A stretch of DNA of 37,146 bases, taken from the NCBI RefSeq assembly GCF_900141795.1, contig NZ_FSRE01000005.1, positions 1-37,146 of the forward strand, in the 5' to 3' direction. The translations under genes were made by a program, and so were the position numbers. Of the stretch, positions 1-11,723 are shown one piece after another (the first letter of the stretch is position 1; every line of letters starts with the position of its first letter). The notes beneath the pieces are model-generated. The model was not told where the DNA came from and did no database searches. It was given only the letters and a program-made list of their open reading frames with translations. This DNA is from Sulfurivirga caldicuralii (GTDB lineage Bacteria > Pseudomonadota > Gammaproteobacteria > Thiomicrospirales > Thiomicrospiraceae).

Positions 1-1297
1 CGTTACACTTGATGCATCAGACAATGCAGCAGAGCTGACTGTTGATCAAGCTAACAGCGTGCGCACGAATGGGACTACGTTCGCTGCCGACGATGCGCTG
101 ACTGTGACTGGTGATGGTGATGATCTGGCTGCTCTGAACCATCGCGACTATTCTACGGTTGCACTGGGAGGCGCTAGCGTTACACTTGATGCATCAGACG
201 ATGCAGCAACGCTGACTGTTGATCAAGCTGACAGCGTGCGCACGAATGCGACCAAGTTCGCTGCCGACGATGCTCTGACTGTGACTGGTGATGGTGATGA
301 TCTGGCTGCTCTGGACCATAGCGACTATTCTACGGTTGCACTGGGAGGCGCTAGCGTTACACTTGATGCATCAGACAATGCAGCAGAGCTGACTGTTGAT
401 CAAGCTGACAGCGTGCGCACGAATGGGACCAAGTTCGCTGCCGACGATGATCTGACTGTGACTGGTGATGGTGATGATCTGGCTGCTCTGGACCATAGCC
501 TCTATGCTACGGTTGCACTGGGAGGCGCTAGCGTTACACTTGATGCATCAGACAATGCAGCAGAGCTGACTGTTGATCAAGCTAACAGCGTGCGCACGAA
601 TGGGACTACGTTCGCTGCCGACGATGATCTGACTGTGACTGGTGCAGGTAATGATCTGGCTGCTCTGGACCATAGCCTCTATGCTACTGATGAACTGGGA
701 GGCGATAGCGTTACACTTGATGCATCAGACAATAAAGCAACGCTGACTGTTGATCAAGCTGACAGCGTGCGCACGAATGGGACTACGTTCGCTGCCGACG
801 ATGATCTGACTGTGACTGGTGCAGGTAATGATCTGGCTGCTCTGAACCATAGCCTCTATGCTACCGATGAACTGGGAGGCGATAGCGTTACACTTGATGC
901 ATCAGACAATAAAGCAACGCTGACTGTTGATCAAGCTAACAGCGTGCGCACGAATGAGACCACGTTCGCTGCCGACGATGCGCTGACCTTGGATGGAGAA
1001 GGTGATGATCTGGCTGCTCTGAACCATAGCCTCTATGCTACGGATGAACTGGGAGGCGCTAGCGTTACACTTGATGCATCAGACAATAAAGCAACGCTGA
1101 GTGTTACGCAAGCTAACAGCGTGCGCACGAATGAGACCACGTTCGCTGCCGACGATGCGCTGACTGTGACTGGTCAAGGTTCTGCGCTGGCTGCTCTGGA
1201 GCATAGCGACTATTCTACGGTTGCACTGGGAGGCGCTAGCGTTACACTTGATGCATCAGACAATAAAGCAACGCTGACTATTACGCAAGCTGACAGC
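1..1297 (+). repeat. 177-bp in-frame tandem repeat array
   Basis: Units begin at 59, 236, 413, 590, 767, 944 and 1121, each exactly 177 bp, preceded by a partial unit (1-58) and followed by a diverged unit starting at 1298. Long stretches are identical at DNA level between units, including silent positions, while a few blocks alternate (NAAEL versus NKATL; DYSTVALGG versus LYATDELGG). This pattern suggests recent expansion or gene conversion. The array continues beyond the left edge. Confidence 0.95.
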
Positions 1298-1819
1298 TTG
1301 CGCACGAACGCGATCAAGTTCGATAGCAGCGACACGCTGACTCTCGATAGTGCCGGCAACTATGGTGACATCTCAGCAATTGGCGGCAATACGATCCTGA
1401 ACCTGGGTTCTACCGACTCAAACAATGCAGTACAGGTGATACTGGGTACCTCTGGTGTGACGACTGTCAACCTGAACGGCACTGGCAACCATGATGTGAC
1501 TGCCAATGCTGCTACAGCTGAAACTTTTGTGGTCGATGGAACTCAGGATGGCGGCTTGTTCCTGCGTGGTTTGACTACAGGTGACAAGCTAAACCTGGAT
1601 GCTCAGATAACTGCAAATTCATCAGATGATGTTCTGAATGGAGTCGCTGTAGAGTCAGCTGCCTATGTAGATGCTGCTGGTGAATGGCATTTTGCCAATG
1701 GCATTCTGACGTACGCTGCAGACAACGAACAAGATGGCCAGTACGTTGCTTACACGATTGCTTTGGCTGGTGTTACATCGATCATTGCAGACGGTGCAAA
1801 CGGCTTTACAGTTGTCTGA
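1..1819 (+). CDS. C-terminal part of a large tandem-repeat secreted/surface protein (5' truncated by window)
   Basis: The reading frame is already open at base 2, so the true start lies outside the window; the first start-like codon (GTG at 59) is inside a repeat. About 606 residues are visible: seven full 59-residue units plus a partial leading unit, then a unique C-terminal part of roughly 170 residues rich in G, N, T, D and hydrophobic beta-strand patterns. The visible part has no cysteine and is acidic. Each unit carries a motif such as GDGDD or GAGND that resembles a single RTX-type calcium loop. The protein ends in GFTVV, a short hydrophobic tail of the kind seen at the C-terminus of type I secreted proteins. 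A complete type I secretion system lies about 5 kb away on the other strand. Inference: an S-layer-like or adhesin-like exported protein. The family could not be named. Confidence 0.75.
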   Translation, partial: VTLDASDNAAELTVDQANSVRTNGTTFAADDALTVTGDGDDLAALNHRDYSTVALGGASVTLDASDDAATLTVDQADSVRTNATKFAADDALTVTGDGDDLAALDHSDYSTVALGGASVTLDASDNAAELTVDQADSVRTNGTKFAADDDLTVTGDGDDLAALDHSLYATVALGGASVTLDASDNAAELTVDQANSVRTNGTTFAADDDLTVTGAGNDLAALDHSLYATDELGGDSVTLDASDNKATLTVDQADSVRTNGTTFAADDDLTVTGAGNDLAALNHSLYATDELGGDSVTLDASDNKATLTVDQANSVRTNETTFAADDALTLDGEGDDLAALNHSLYATDELGGASVTLDASDNKATLSVTQANSVRTNETTFAADDALTVTGQGSALAALEHSDYSTVALGGASVTLDASDNKATLTITQADSLRTNAIKFDSSDTLTLDSAGNYGDISAIGGNTILNLGSTDSNNAVQVILGTSGVTTVNLNGTGNHDVTANAATAETFVVDGTQDGGLFLRGLTTGDKLNLDAQITANSSDDVLNGVAVESAAYVDAAGEWHFANGILTYAADNEQDGQYVAYTIALAGVTSIIADGANGFTVV

Positions 1820-3634: not shown

Positions 3635-3702
3635 TTACCAACTTCACGCGGCGCTTTCAAAGTGCCGCTTACCAACTCCTCGCGGCGCTTTCAAAGTGCC
3701 GC
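3635..3702. terminator. Two tandem 34-bp palindromic copies between convergent genes (probable bidirectional terminator)
   Basis: The segments 3635-3668 and 3669-3702 are direct repeats differing at a couple of bases. Each holds a near-perfect hairpin, GCGGCGCTTT-C-AAAGTGCCGC. The second copy contains the last codons and the stop of the minus-strand protease gene. Neither has a long T-run, so termination strength is uncertain. Confidence 0.5.
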
Positions 3703-4896
3703 ATCGTTGTCTTGGATGGTGCGCATGCCGATCAATTCTGTAGCACCGTCGGGAAAGGTGCCACCGACAGGGTCGTAGATTTTCAGATAGAAGGTCTCGT
3801 TGCTTTCGGGGATGTCGTCGCCGATGATCTCCACCGGGATGGGCACGGCCTGCTCACCGGGATAGAACACCAGGGTTCCTTGGGTGGCGATGTAGTCCTG
3901 CCCCGCTGTGGCGGTGCCGTCGAGGGTGGTGTATTTCACTTCAACCGGCTGATCGGCGGTGACGGTGCCGCTGTAGTTCACCAGAAACCATGCGGTGGTG
4001 ATCTGGCCGGCATTGCCTTCGGTGATGACTGTTTTCACCTGAGCGGGCGCATGGGGGGCATCCGTCCAGCTCTGGCGCAGCGCCTGATCGATAAACTGCT
4101 GTTCGTTACTTACACGGGTCCATGCAGCAATTTCACCAAAGGATGCATCGGTACGATAGGGGGTGACATCGGGAGTGATGCCCGCTTTGGCCAGTGAGGT
4201 GACGTAGCTGGCCACGCCCGCAATCTGACCGTTGATAAAGGCAGGCCCGCCGCTGTCGCCGGGGGCGATGAGCCCTTCCGCCGCGCCGAGGCCGGTGTTG
4301 TACAGGCCCATCAGGCGGCCCAGGGCGTCGTGGGCAACGCTGCCGTCGTCGAAGTCGGCCACCAGCGTCATGTCCCCGTGGGGCGTCCATGCCATGGCGC
4401 TCTCAAGCGCATTTTTGAGTTGGGTGGCGGTGGTGTCGAAGGTGTTTTGCGCGTCGTGACGGTAGGGGGTAGACTGGGACATCGCGCCGGTGGTGCCGGT
4501 GCCGATATCGCCATAGCCCACCATGGTGAAGGTCTTGCCCAGTTCGTCGTTACTGCGGTAGAGGTGGTAGCGGTCGGCCGCCGCCGGTGCGGGTTGATCG
4601 AGAATGATCAGCGCCGCATCGTGCAGAGAATTGGTGGCATCGTAGCTGGGGTCGATGATGACCTGTGTGGCCTTGCGCCATACGACGCCGGCGGCTGTTT
4701 CGAAGCGCACTTCGATGTCGCCGCTGGGGGCGTGGCGCACCACATGAGCGGCGGTGAGGATGGCACGGCCGTCGAACAGCAGCGCACCGCTGCCGGCGAT
4801 GTACTCCTGTCGGTTGGACACATACACCACGCCGTCATAGCGGCTGTCGGTATCGGCATGCAGCTGCAGTTCGCTCCAGCTGGTGCTCATGACCAT
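3691..4896 (-). CDS. Trypsin-like serine protease (S1) with C-terminal Calx-beta domain
   Basis: A 401-residue protein. The catalytic triad is readable: His51 in LTAAHVV, Asp93 in LHDAALIILD and Ser215 in APGDSGGPAF. Residues about 286-398 form a Calx-beta-type calcium-binding domain (GTATAGQDY, then LVFYPGEQ, then DDIPESNETFYL). The ATG at 4896 is preferred because GGGAGGA lies 7 bases upstream; an ATG two codons later is poorly placed. There is no Sec signal peptide, yet such domains act outside the cell, which fits export by the T1SS encoded upstream on the same strand. It is the last gene of the run, 36 bp after the DUF6447-like gene. It could process the repeat protein or other surface proteins (inference). 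Confidence 0.85.
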   Translation of the reverse strand: MVMSTSWSELQLHADTDSRYDGVVYVSNRQEYIAGSGALLFDGRAILTAAHVVRHAPSGDIEVRFETAAGVVWRKATQVIIDPSYDATNSLHDAALIILDQPAPAAADRYHLYRSNDELGKTFTMVGYGDIGTGTTGAMSQSTPYRHDAQNTFDTTATQLKNALESAMAWTPHGDMTLVADFDDGSVAHDALGRLMGLYNTGLGAAEGLIAPGDSGGPAFINGQIAGVASYVTSLAKAGITPDVTPYRTDASFGEIAAWTRVSNEQQFIDQALRQSWTDAPHAPAQVKTVITEGNAGQITTAWFLVNYSGTVTADQPVEVKYTTLDGTATAGQDYIATQGTLVFYPGEQAVPIPVEIIGDDIPESNETFYLKIYDPVGGTFPDGATELIGMRTIQDNDAAL

Positions 4897-5192: not shown

Positions 5193-7647
<2,455 letters not shown>

Positions 7648-7649
7648 GC

Positions 7650-9152
7650 TTACTCCTCCGTCAGCGCCATGTGAATGCGGCGCAGCAGCGGGTGGACGAT
7701 GTATTCCAGCAGGGTGCGTTCGCCGGTCTTGATCACCACTGAGGCGGGCATGCCTGGCATCAGCGGCTTGTCTGCGCCCAGTTCATTGCGACCTTTTTCA
7801 GTTAGGACCACATAGGCGATGTAGTAGGGTGGCGTGTTGGTATCCTTGGTTTTGATCAGGTCGGCTGATACGGAGACCACCTCGCCTTCAATGGCAACCG
7901 GGGCATCAATGGCATAGTTCTGCAGCTGCACATCCGCTTTCTGACCCGGTTTGACCCGGTCGATCATGTTGGAGGGCACATGCACTTCAATTACTAGCGG
8001 CGCACCTCCGGGGATAATCTCCATCAGCGGCTCGCCGGGGCGTATGGCGCTGCCGATGGTATGCACATTCAGCGCATTGATGCGGCCACTGACCGGTGCA
8101 CGAATGACCATGGCGTCCAGTTTGTCTTTTGCGGCCAGCAGTTTTTCCCGCAGCACGGCTAATTTCTGGCTGGTTTCTGCCAGTTGGGTGGCCACTTCCT
8201 TGCGCGCCTGCTCGATTTCGTTTTGCGCGTTCAGGTGGGCATTTCGCGCCTGATCCTCGGCGCGGGCAATGGCATTACGCAGTTCCAGTGCGCGGCGCTG
8301 CAGCTCCAGATACTTGTCCCTGGCCACATAGCCTTCATCCGCCAGAGACTTCATGCCCTTGAGCTGCTCCTCCACCAGCTTGAGCTGTTCCCGCTTGCTC
8401 TCTGCATCAGCCTTGGCGCTGTACTCGGTCTGGCGATATACGTTCAGCTTGGCCTGCATGGCCGCGCGGCGGCTGGCGAACAGGGCCTGCTGATGGGCCA
8501 TCTGCAGGTCGGCCTCCCCTTGTGCGCCGTATTGCTTGAGCTCCTCCGGAAAGTCGATATGGTCCAGACCTTTTTGCTCTGCTTCCAGCCGGGACTTTTC
8601 CGCCAGTGCGGCCACATACTGCTTGAGCAGGCTGTCGTAGTCGGCGCGGGCCTGGGTGTCGTCCAGCTCGATGAGCACCTCGCCCTGCTTGACCGGCTGC
8701 AGGTCCTGCACATGGATGGCCTTGACGGTACCGCCATAAAGGTGGGAAATCACCTTGGGCTTGCCCTTGACGATGACGGTGCCCGGCGCCGGCACGCCGG
8801 CGTCCAGCGGCATGGTGGCGGCCCAGAAAGCAAAGCCGCCGAAGAGGATGAGCAGCATCAGCAGGCCGATGCGCATGAAGCGGTGCGCTTCCCTGGGCAG
8901 GTGGTGTTCGGCCTGGGTCACATGCTCAGGCTCATCCTCCACCTTGCGGGCCTTGGGAAGCTTGTCCTGGGTGTCCGGCAGAGGGGGGGACGCCTGATTT
9001 TTTTCCGCGCCGGTTTTCGTTTCCACTTCCGCCTCGTGGGGGGCGTTTTCCGCCCCTGGCGCGGCGCCTTGCGTCTCGGCTGCGGTGTTTTCTGCCTGCT
9101 TTGCGGGGGTGTCTGGCTGTGTTGTGGGGTTGAGCGCGCTGTTTTTCTGCAT
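7650..9152 (-). CDS. HlyD-family periplasmic adaptor (membrane fusion protein) of the type I secretion system
   Basis: A 500-residue protein. Residues 1-90 are an unusually long hydrophilic cytoplasmic region rich in A, E, P and Q; a single membrane helix follows at about 94-112 (MRIGLLMLLILFGGFAFWA). Next come a lipoyl-type half motif (VIVKGKPKVISHLYGGTVKAIHV), a long coiled-coil hairpin (about 170-345) and the second half (VIRAPVSGRINALNVHTIGSAIRPGEPLMEI is split around the barrel domain). The C-terminus has the PGMPASVVIKTGERTLLEYI pattern typical of HlyD/PrtE proteins. The extended cytoplasmic tail may take part in substrate recognition (inference). Confidence 0.93.
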   Translation of the reverse strand: MQKNSALNPTTQPDTPAKQAENTAAETQGAAPGAENAPHEAEVETKTGAEKNQASPPLPDTQDKLPKARKVEDEPEHVTQAEHHLPREAHRFMRIGLLMLLILFGGFAFWAATMPLDAGVPAPGTVIVKGKPKVISHLYGGTVKAIHVQDLQPVKQGEVLIELDDTQARADYDSLLKQYVAALAEKSRLEAEQKGLDHIDFPEELKQYGAQGEADLQMAHQQALFASRRAAMQAKLNVYRQTEYSAKADAESKREQLKLVEEQLKGMKSLADEGYVARDKYLELQRRALELRNAIARAEDQARNAHLNAQNEIEQARKEVATQLAETSQKLAVLREKLLAAKDKLDAMVIRAPVSGRINALNVHTIGSAIRPGEPLMEIIPGGAPLVIEVHVPSNMIDRVKPGQKADVQLQNYAIDAPVAIEGEVVSVSADLIKTKDTNTPPYYIAYVVLTEKGRNELGADKPLMPGMPASVVIKTGERTLLEYIVHPLLRRIHMALTEE

Positions 9153-9163
9153 GGTTCTGATCC

Positions 9164-10888
9164 TTATGCGCTTTTTTGAGAGGTCTGTTGCTGCTGTTGC
9201 TGCAGGGCCTGCAGCACCTGTTCGCGCGGACCGAAGGCCTGGCTGACGCCGTCGCGGATCACCAGAATGTTGTCCACCACCTTGAGGATGTTGGTGCGGT
9301 GGGTGATGACCACCACGGTGCGGTTCTGTTCTTTCAGGTGCTGCAGGGCGGTCAATAGGGCGCGTTCGCCGGCATCGTCCAGGTTGGAGTTGGGCTCATC
9401 CAGCACGATGATGCGGGCATCGCCGTAGATGGCGCGGGCAAGCGCGATGCGCTGGCGCTGACCGCCGGAGAGGGCGGCGCCGCCGGGGCCGATGGGGGTG
9501 TCGTAGCCCTTGGGGAAGTGCAGGATCATCTCGTGCACGCCCGCAAGCTGGGCTGCCTCCACGACCTTGCCCGGGTCGATCTCGCCAAAGCGGGCGATGT
9601 TTTCAGCGATGGTGCCGTCGAAAAGTTCGATATCCTGCGGCAGGTAGCCGAGGTAGGGACCGAGTTCTGACTTGTCCCATTGCGCTACATCGGCGCCGTC
9701 GATGCGCACCTTGCCGCCGTGGGAGGGCCATACGCCCACCAGCAGGCGCGCCAGGGTGGATTTGCCTGAGCCGGAGGGGCCGATAATGGCGGTAATGGTG
9801 CCGGGCGCGAAGCCGCAGTTGACGCCGCGCAGAATGGGGACCTGTCCACCGGGGGGCACCGCCACCACATTTTCCACCTTGACCAGTCCTTTTGGTGCGG
9901 GCAAGGGCATCTGCTCGGGCTTTTTCGGGAACTGAGCCAGCAGCTTTTTCAGGCGGTGGTAGGCCAGGCGCGCCTGGGTGAAGCCTTTCCAGTTGGCGAT
10001 CAGCTGATCCAGTGGCGCCAGTGCGCGGCCCATCAGGATGGAGCCGACGATCATTTCGCCGGGAGTGATCTGATTGCGGATGGCTAGATAGGCGCCCAGG
10101 CCGAGAATCAGGGACTGGGAGGTGAGGCGGACGAATTTGGTGAGACTGGTAATGAAGCCGGCCTTGTCGCTGGCACGCGCCTGTTCCACCAAATGTTTGG
10201 CATGCAGATGCTTCCAGCGGGCGCGCAGGGCATCCAGCATGCCCATGGCCTCAATCACCTCGGCATTGCTCAGGTTGTTGTGGGCGAAGTTGGTGGCCTG
10301 ATTGGCCAGTCTGTTCGCCTCGGCAAGGGGCTTTTTAGTGCTCACTTCGTTCCAGATGGTCAGCGCCACCAGAATGAGTGCGGCTGCGATGGAGAACCAG
10401 CCCAGCCACGGATGCAGCACGAAGATAACGGCGATGTAGATGGGGAACCAGGGGGCATCGAAAAAGGCGAATGGCCCGTTGCCGGTCATGAACTGGCGCA
10501 GTTGGGTCAGGTCGCTCAGCGCCTGGCGGGCATTGGCACCGCCGCGGCGCAGGGTGGCCTCGAAGGCGGCATCGAACACGCGGCTGTTGAGTTTGGCCTC
10601 GATGGCGGCACCCACCCGCACCAGCACCCGCGAGCGCACAAATTCCAGCAGCGCCATCAGTAAAAACAGCCCCACCACCAGAATGGTCAGGGCGATGAGC
10701 GTCATGTCGTTGCGGCTGGCCAGCACGCGGTCGTACACCTGCAGCATGTACAGGGGGCCGGTGAGCATCAGCAGGTTGATGAAGAAGGAGAAAATGCCCA
10801 CCCCCCAGAAGTAGCGTTTCATGGAGAGCAGGATTTCGGCCAGCTCGGAGCGGGCGTCGTTTGGATTGGCAGGATTGGGTTGTGTCAT
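9164..10888 (-). CDS. Type I secretion ABC transporter, permease/ATPase (PrtD type)
   Basis: A 574-residue half-transporter: a membrane domain (about 20-310) followed by an ATPase domain with Walker A GPSGSGKST, signature LSGGQRQR, Walker B IIVLDEPNS and the H-loop in VVITHRTN. It has no N-terminal C39 peptidase or peptidase-like domain, as in PrtD/AprD rather than HlyB/LapB. The C-terminus ends in a glutamine run (LQQQQQQ). It begins 15 bp after the TnpB-like gene and 11 bp before the adaptor gene, within one transcriptional run. Confidence 0.94.
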   Translation of the reverse strand: MTQPNPANPNDARSELAEILLSMKRYFWGVGIFSFFINLLMLTGPLYMLQVYDRVLASRNDMTLIALTILVVGLFLLMALLEFVRSRVLVRVGAAIEAKLNSRVFDAAFEATLRRGGANARQALSDLTQLRQFMTGNGPFAFFDAPWFPIYIAVIFVLHPWLGWFSIAAALILVALTIWNEVSTKKPLAEANRLANQATNFAHNNLSNAEVIEAMGMLDALRARWKHLHAKHLVEQARASDKAGFITSLTKFVRLTSQSLILGLGAYLAIRNQITPGEMIVGSILMGRALAPLDQLIANWKGFTQARLAYHRLKKLLAQFPKKPEQMPLPAPKGLVKVENVVAVPPGGQVPILRGVNCGFAPGTITAIIGPSGSGKSTLARLLVGVWPSHGGKVRIDGADVAQWDKSELGPYLGYLPQDIELFDGTIAENIARFGEIDPGKVVEAAQLAGVHEMILHFPKGYDTPIGPGGAALSGGQRQRIALARAIYGDARIIVLDEPNSNLDDAGERALLTALQHLKEQNRTVVVITHRTNILKVVDNILVIRDGVSQAFGPREQVLQALQQQQQQTSQKSA

Positions 10889-10903: not shown

Positions 10904-11503
10904 TTATACCGCTTGAATACGGGGTTGTGAGTCGACATTGAGATAGAGGGTGTGGTCGTGCACTTCCGGCAGAAGATGCCCTGGCATGCTGCGGTCCTTG
11001 GCTTCCAGATAGAACGACAGCTGATAGCGTGAACCGTCGCCGTGGAGGATGGCTTCCTTCACTTGACCTGCGCGCAGGGTGTCGATCACATCCTCAGAGA
11101 CATCCAGCTGAAACTGCAGCCGCCCTTCAAGAGTATAGAGCGAGAGGGCGTTTGGTTTGAGTGTCAGGGTGTGGCGATCGAAGAATACCGGTGCGGTTGG
11201 GGAGAAGCGCAGAATGGGCTGCGTGTCATCCGGGAGCCGCAGCGCCACCTTGACCTTTTGTGCCTGCTTGTAGCCCCGCGCCACCGCGTAGATGGCGTTG
11301 CAGGCCAGCTGCGCGCCCAGATCGGGAAACTGGCTGCGTATTGTTTCATAGGCGAGATGGTGCAGCGCGACCCGTGCTGTGACCTGGTGCCGATGGGCGA
11401 TGTCCGCCACCGCATTGCACGCTTGTGCAAAGCGCTGCTGCAGCTGCTGCAGAAAGTGTGCCTGTGCGGGCGTCAGGTTGAGCGGGCAGTGAATAATTTT
11501 CAT
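10904..11503 (-). CDS. TnpB/IS605 OrfB-like N-terminal domain protein lacking the nuclease domain
   Basis: A 199-residue protein. The opening (MKIIHCPLNLTPAQAHFLQQL, then F.QACNAVADIAHRHQV, ALHHLAYETIRSQFPDLGAQLACNAIYAVARGYK) and the later FFDRHTLTLK, LSLYTLEGRLQF and HGDGSRYQLSFYLEA follow, in order, the N-terminal region of TnpB proteins that precedes RuvC and binds guide RNA. The last residues, LYLNVDSQPRIQAV, resemble the first RuvC strand with its aspartate; then the protein stops. The rest of RuvC and the zinc ribbon are absent, so cleavage is not expected. It is the first gene of the secretion run, 15 bp before the ABC gene, and shows no frame damage. Possibly an exapted nucleic-acid-binding regulator; alternatively a recent truncation. 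Confidence 0.75.
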   Translation of the reverse strand: MKIIHCPLNLTPAQAHFLQQLQQRFAQACNAVADIAHRHQVTARVALHHLAYETIRSQFPDLGAQLACNAIYAVARGYKQAQKVKVALRLPDDTQPILRFSPTAPVFFDRHTLTLKPNALSLYTLEGRLQFQLDVSEDVIDTLRAGQVKEAILHGDGSRYQLSFYLEAKDRSMPGHLLPEVHDHTLYLNVDSQPRIQAV

Positions 11504-11521
11504 ATATGAAGTTTTTCATAT
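11504..11521 (-). promoter_or_regulatory. Hairpin between the ribosome site and the start codon of the secretion operon
   Basis: On the minus strand ATATGAA-AAAC-TTCATAT forms a perfect 7-bp stem directly before the ATG at 11503. The only purine-rich ribosome site (AAAGGA, about 11523-11528) lies on the far side, about 20 bases from the start. Folding would bring the site close to the ATG, or hide it when another partner binds. An out-of-frame ATG sits inside the stem at 11517-11519. Confidence 0.5.
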
Positions 11522-11533
11522 GTCCTTTGTCGA

Positions 11534-11583
11534 GGCGCGTATTATGCGGGCAGATGTTCGTTTGCTGTGTGATATATGACACA
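11534..11583 (-). promoter_or_regulatory. Probable promoter with CRP/FNR-like activator site for the secretion operon
   Basis: Reading the minus strand, CATAATACGC (−10 at 11541-11546) is very similar to the stable-RNA promoters at the right end of the window, but there is no good −35 box. The 18-bp palindrome TGTGTGATATATGACACA (11566-11583, two mismatched symmetric positions) is centred about 41 bases before the predicted transcript start. This is the position used by class II CRP/FNR-type activators. Which regulator binds is not known. Confidence 0.5.
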
Positions 11584-11723
11584 TTGCGCTGAAAGTGCGT
11601 TCTTTGCAAGACGGTGTCAGGGGCATGTCTGTGCGCTGGCCGGGGTCGTGAGCAGGTGTCTCACCTTTGCCTTTTATACTACAGGTGCTGTTCGGCTGAT
11701 TGTGTAGCCTATTCAAGGGGAGG

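Follow-up and report, generated by a model that had tools for sequence, protein, structure and literature searches.

A contig of the gammaproteobacterium Sulfurivirga caldicuralii (NZ_FSRE01000005.1, positions 1 to 37,146; this whole stretch of 37,146 nucleotides is called the window below) carries a PrtD-type type I secretion system (T1SS) operon whose first gene encodes an isolated REC lobe of an IS605-type TnpB. Overall, it seems fairly probable that this half of TnpB, which reads the target-adjacent motif (TAM), is a sequence-specific DNA-binding autorepressor of its own secretion operon, probably working without guide RNA. An autorepressor is proposed because the positions of the putative binding sites have the geometry of a repressor. 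A preliminary description, made from the sequence alone, had suggested a possible RNA- or DNA-binding regulator of the secretion operon; the present data support this view, DNA being favoured by an operator that lies at the promoter and contains the inferred TAM. The two features concerned are as follows.

10904 to 11503, minus strand: RuvC-less TnpB REC-lobe protein (199 aa), first gene of the operon, proposed DNA-binding autorepressor
11499 to 11510: operator TTCATATATGAA, a perfect palindrome of two TTCAT half-sites, overlapping the start codon

An operator at the start of the operon

A scan of genome contigs (14 loci) and profile searches covering more than 1,000 genomes (28 loci) gave, together with the window, 43 loci that carry the TnpB-derived gene. 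Comparison of their upstream regions revealed at the start of the operon a near-palindrome, TTCMTATAKGAA, most often in the form TTCATATAGGA and found on either strand; in the window, Tepidiphilus and others, it consists of two inverted TTCAT. Within 200 bp of the TnpB-derived gene, 68 such sites occur in 39 loci, 34 in each orientation; TCATATA is invariant and the logo positions beyond the 12-mer are near random. In L012, L017 and L081, where the TnpB-derived gene comes after a TolC gene, the sites are located upstream of TolC. As L006 has no upstream sequence and was left out of the count, the operator is present in all 42 informative loci (39 near the gene and 3 upstream of TolC). When one mismatch is allowed, 73 matches are found in the 632 kb of loci, against 0–1 in Markov shuffles.

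In about two thirds of the loci, the motif includes the start codon. In most loci, a TATAAT-like box ends 5–11 nt ahead of the ATG and has the sites next to it or on both sides, so that they typically cover the start codon and the -35/spacer region of near-leaderless transcripts. The overlap with the start codon would also suit a protein that binds its own mRNA there and blocks translation, and the WED domain has an OB-type fold that contacts RNA in TnpB (PMC10097598). Such RNA-level autoregulation is nevertheless very improbable, as sites also precede the -10 box, where no transcript is expected, occur in both orientations alike and are far from the start codon of the protein itself where TolC leads the operon. 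The protein might instead stimulate transcription by binding to the operator, or form a switch with a partner through its conserved C-terminal motif: one site is often at or upstream of the -35, and this motif follows a variable linker, as in docking peptides. However, activators rarely bind where the second site is, over the start codon and immediately 3' of the -10 box, which leaves activation or co-regulation improbable.

In the 1.67-Mb genome to which the window belongs, the only exact TTCMTATAKGAA is the one located over the start codon, and sites with one mismatch are no more numerous than those of the reversed-pattern control. Among 35 gene-positive genomes, 47 of the 50 exact TTCATATAGGA sites are at the operon, and 33 gene-negative genomes contain a single site. 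A regulon extending beyond the operon was considered and rejected, as the other exact sites (in G431:C31, G525:C117, G003:C160 and G450) are few and look like chance; one of the stray sites is inside a biotin-carboxylase frame and another coincides with a Shine-Dalgarno sequence. Furthermore, five orthologous T1SS operons that lack the gene, and whose best ABC proteins are 46–73% identical to that of the window (one at 73%), contain neither the operator nor any remnant of the gene. The contrast between 42/42 loci with the gene and 0/5 matched operons without it is significant (Fisher p 6.5e-7), although this value overstates the evidence as related genomes are not independent. The presence of the operator is tied to the TnpB piece rather than to the transporter.

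This distribution bears on the proposal that another transcription factor reads the operator and that the TnpB piece aids secretion otherwise, for instance by serving the transporter as chaperone or adaptor. The strict linkage of the gene to transporter genes would fit such a role; this explanation is nonetheless given very little credit, since the operator tracks the TnpB-derived gene rather than the transporter and the motif holds the inferred TAM of the TnpB clade. An operator that is practically confined to one place per genome is expected to be read by a product of the same operon, and none of ABC, HlyD and TolC belongs to a DNA-binding family.

The half-site and the inferred TAM of related TnpBs

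The multi-copy elements encoding full-length TnpBs in G751, G874 and G823 have left flanks that diverge immediately before TTCAT. By analogy with other IS605 elements, we strongly infer that TTCAT is the target site and the TAM of full-length TnpBs in these three related lineages. The first five bases of the operator, which form its half-site, are this same TTCAT, so that the protein would read an ancestral signature. One full-length TnpB near the family, L108 (1885–3078, minus strand, 397 aa), has no adjacent T1SS; at its start codon stands an exact TCCTATATGAA, preceded by a good -35/-10 pair (TTGACT-17-TAGTAT). This single case suggests that TAM-based self-regulation arose before RuvC was lost; full-length TnpBs may already have repressed themselves by binding the TAM, and the regulator could thus predate the loss of the nuclease.

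A TnpB protein cut at a domain border

According to the preliminary description, the window protein matches the pre-RuvC part of TnpB, and the absence of any structural match to WED/REC would have spoken against this assignment. Profile searches give little: no match was obtained with the window protein in Pfam and PHROGs, Pfam contains no entry for the family as a whole, no NCBIfam model matches it above threshold, and the TnpB profile TIGR01765 of NCBIfam hits the window protein only at a sub-cutoff level (E value 0.013). Kinship is carried instead by a homologue and by the fold, which together bear the assignment out. The window protein is 38% identical over 163 aa to the N-terminal part of L004, a full-length IS605 TnpB from Methylomarinovum that has an adjacent tnpA. 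Its AlphaFold2 model, built with 15 sequences (pLDDT 86, pTM 0.86), fits WED/REC and matches TnpB 8exa (Z 12.3), TnpB 8h1j (Z 11.6) and 9i8y (Z 15.3) in comparisons with Foldseek and VIA-align. The best fold matches, with Z of 11–15, are the REC lobes of Cas12f (up to Z 15.3), TnpB, Fanzor, Cas12k and other Cas12; the RuvC-less family has no direct sequence match to solved structures, its kinship to them being by fold only.

In ISDra2 TnpB, WED comprises residues 1–12 and 117–176, REC residues 13–116, and RuvC starts at 185; the TAM duplex is held by WED and REC, with contacts by Y52, S56, K76, F77, Q80, T123 and N124, and the omegaRNA scaffold by WED and RuvC (PMC10097598). Given these domain limits and the fold matches, the window gene is, on the strength of the model, a TnpB REC lobe (WED+REC) without RuvC, cut at the domain border, and its product ends at the start of RuvC-I. 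RuvC with its D/E/D residues and the zinc ribbon are missing in 43/43 members, all of which end before or at RuvC-I. Judged by eye, a helix with the motif GSQxxCN is common to the RuvC-less family and the TTCAT clade and is not present in more distant TnpBs. In most members, the protein ends in [LIF]P[ED]Y[LV] after a variable linker (e.g. L007:231–848); this tail, predicted with modest confidence as a short strand, is a possible docking tail. The earlier interpretation of LYLNVD as a remnant of RuvC-I is plausible only in the branch of the window.

One ancient family linked to type I secretion

The 14 relatives from the contig scan all end at the same place and all adjoin T1SS ABC genes. Altogether, 42 RuvC-less homologues were found beside T1SS genes, a linkage far above chance; in every informative locus, the TnpB-derived gene immediately precedes one or two PrtD-type ABC genes, the first of which starts within ~90 bp of it or overlaps it. 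The same searches also retrieved full-length TnpBs, and these do not adjoin T1SS genes. In the tree, the RuvC-less proteins form one clade (100/99) that neighbours full-length TnpBs from G779, G674, G823 and Methylomarinovum, and their origin requires one change in every bootstrap tree. This single ancient clade rules out a recent truncation of a full-length TnpB, which had also been envisaged as an explanation.

Close pairs mostly have dN/dS of 0.08–0.27, which indicates purifying selection (of two more divergent comparisons, one gave 0.35 and the other was saturated). The TnpB piece has co-diverged with the adjacent ABC gene: their distances are correlated with a Mantel r of 0.85, and none of 2000 permutations reached this value. 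A decaying transposon fragment devoid of function, to which the low similarity to curated TnpB models might point, is refuted by purifying selection across the family, with dN/dS far below 1, by the conserved synteny and operator and by the one ancient origin; virtually no weight is left to it. The collection of genomes with the same gene beside T1SS ABC genes and the measurement of selection had both been advocated in the preliminary description, which saw a full-length TnpB at this locus in relatives as a possible refutation; none was found among the 42 homologues, all RuvC-less.

Only two members, G000 and G003, come from the order to which the window belongs. Among 299 genomes of the taxonomic family of G431 (Azonexus/Rhodocyclaceae-like), 28 strong members were found, and the same wider order holds further ones. 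The remoteness of the window's order from most members makes a horizontal acquisition of the window operon probable; the ABC protein of this operon is 75% identical to that of Tepidiphilus. About 50 Rhodocyclaceae-like genomes (e.g. L067–L069) also give weak profile matches (E 1e-3 to 1e-8), which cover model positions ~13–81 in frames of varied length. Two forms of the operon exist, one with a single ABC gene (L005, L006, L104, L188 and the window) and one with two tandem PrtD-type ABC genes (L007–L018 and most of L081–L107), the latter possibly encoding a heterodimeric exporter.

The operon of the window

The remaining features of the operon are listed below.

9164 to 10888, minus strand: PrtD-type T1SS permease/ATPase (TIGR01842, 790 bits against a cutoff of 510)
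7650 to 9152, minus strand: HlyD-family T1SS adaptor (TIGR01843, above cutoff)
6310 to 7647, minus strand: TolC-family outer-membrane channel (TIGR01844, above cutoff)
11504 to 11723, minus strand: intergenic region 5' of the operon, which should hold the promoter

The PrtD-type T1SS operon is thus complete in the window, with ABC, HlyD and TolC in this order. As described previously, the TnpB-derived frame is complete and undamaged (199 codons, from an ATG at 11503 to a stop ending at 10904) and precedes the secretion ATPase gene (10888 to 9164) by 15 bp; the strand, not given at that time, is minus. No second copy of the gene was found in the genome to which the window belongs. A CATAAT box lies 37 nt before its ATG. 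An upstream ATG (11519) with a good Shine-Dalgarno sequence (AAAGGA) opens a short ORF in a different frame (11501–11519, minus strand), overlapping the TnpB-derived gene, and translation of the latter may therefore be unusual.

Two other genes of the window may be related to secretion. The first (3691–4896, minus strand) encodes a serine-protease-like protein with a Calx-beta-type C-terminal part, which recurs beside operons combining the TnpB piece and T1SS in L002, L082, L094, L095 and L104 and may be a T1SS substrate or a processing partner. The second (59–1819, plus strand), located ~4.5 kb past the end of the T1SS operon, encodes a repeat-rich protein that resembles a T1SS substrate and is a candidate cargo.

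Guide RNA or direct recognition of DNA

No omegaRNA was found over the 3' end of the gene, nor any transposon right end, in the short space before the ABC gene. A search of Rfam with six sources returned nothing relevant, and no sequence is conserved upstream beyond ~60 bp of promoter in four close groups. On sequence grounds, the data favour DNA over RNA as the ligand of the TnpB piece, because a conserved operator that includes the inferred TAM lies on the promoter, and neither a conserved RNA nor room for an omegaRNA was found.

The protein could also be viewed as an RNA-guided repressor, i.e. a TldR stripped of RuvC whose REC lobe would use a small guide encoded in trans, TTCAT being the TAM and ATAGGA a 6-nt seed. 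The conserved 11-mer can indeed be split into a TAM of 5 nt and 6 further nucleotides, 6-nt guides suffice for TldR (PMC13418256), the positions past the 11-mer are near random, as expected of a short seed, and the WED of TnpB touches stem 4 and the pseudoknot of omegaRNA (PMC10097598). On the other hand, RuvC, which holds stems 1–3 and half of the pseudoknot, is missing, and the locus offers neither a conserved upstream RNA in the four close groups, nor more than minimal downstream space, nor an Rfam match. Moreover, the seed mirrors the TAM, to the point that the TTCATATATGAA of the window lineage is a perfect TAM-TAM inverted repeat, and a trans-encoded RNA would require the same 'seed' to be kept across all these species. 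RNA guidance is consequently considered unlikely.

The autorepressor proposal can be summarized as follows. The TAM-gripping half of an IS605 TnpB (WED+REC) was captured once, lost RuvC, the zinc finger, the omegaRNA and the transposon ends, and became fixed as the first gene of a PrtD-type T1SS operon. Two protomers would bind inverted TTC[AC]T half-sites without guide RNA and would block RNA polymerase at the -35, the spacer and the start codon. The secretion operon would thereby be kept low by negative feedback and be released by a signal or by a drop in the amount of protein. In this scheme, the family with its fold and the selection on it, the operator and the co-occurrence of operator and gene are established, and binding, dimerisation, repression, RNA independence and the inducing signal are inferred.

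Several points weigh against this proposal, in addition to the non-independence of genomes in the Fisher test, the possible division of the 11-mer into TAM and seed and the sufficiency of 6-nt guides for TldR. The palindrome is imperfect in most lineages (G for T at one position), its chance probability is ~0.005 per dyad centre, i.e. 0.02 for five centres, and the A-rich flanks of the operator are not symmetric. A simple scan of 11504–11723 found no consensus sigma-70 promoter. Repression is preferred to activation from the position of the sites and from nothing else, and the left-end boundary that defines the TAM was deduced from IS605 logic, not from empty sites.

Relation to known systems

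TldRs, which are TnpB-like nuclease-dead repressors (Wiegand et al. 2024, as described in PMC13418256), resemble the TnpB piece in being TnpB descendants exapted as transcriptional regulators, with promoter sites that include the TAM and a stable linkage to a non-transposon gene, here a PrtD-type T1SS in all informative loci. According to the same description, TldRs keep the RuvC fold with a mutated active site, use a guide RNA and repress by RNA-DNA pairing, whereas the TnpB piece has lost the whole nuclease half, has no guide RNA detected at its locus (a trans-encoded one being possible), and has an inverted TAM-like repeat as operator and its own operon as proposed target. It is not filed as a TldR because RuvC is absent and no guide RNA was found.

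The TnpB piece shares the WED+REC fold with IS605 TnpBs (ISDra2 and, as closest relatives, L004, L108, L110 and L113) and its half-site with the inferred TAM, TTCAT, of three relatives; it differs from them by the absence of RuvC, zinc ribbon, omegaRNA and transposon ends. Its fold also matches, up to Z 15, the REC lobes of Cas12f, Cas12k and Cas12m, which, unlike it, belong to guide-RNA proteins with a RuvC domain. Cas12k is a natural non-cutter. Cas12m is likewise described as one (PMC10442227). Finally, as in classical operon self-repressors such as those of toxin-antitoxin systems, the protein is encoded by the first gene and a near-palindromic operator covers promoter and start codon, but its putative DNA-binding domain is a TnpB/Cas12 REC lobe and not HTH, RHH or AbrB. 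The literature searched, which leaves out the original TldR paper with its supplements and the 2023 TnpB/Cas12 classification paper, contains nothing on TnpB fragments associated with type I secretion, on TTCAT TAMs of TnpB or on TnpB autoregulation. Taken as a whole, exaptation of TnpB as a regulator is known and the TnpB piece is probably a new type of DNA-binding self-repressor. The balance tips slightly towards a new class of transcription factors, made of a TnpB/Cas12 REC lobe alone that acts as an RNA-free dimer on inverted TAMs.

If guide-free binding is true, the REC lobe would be a DNA-binding domain of a kind new to transcription factors, and TnpB would be exaptable by its TAM/PAM-reading half alone (PAM, protospacer-adjacent motif), the opposite of TldR, in which guide RNA and nuclease fold are kept. 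The protein would be a natural RNA-free reader, of ~200 residues, of a TAM-like sequence, with which TAM recognition could be studied apart from R-loop formation. It would also hint that self-regulation of TnpB through its own TAM came first, and would supply a secretion system that is widespread, mainly in betaproteobacteria, with a regulator and an operator.
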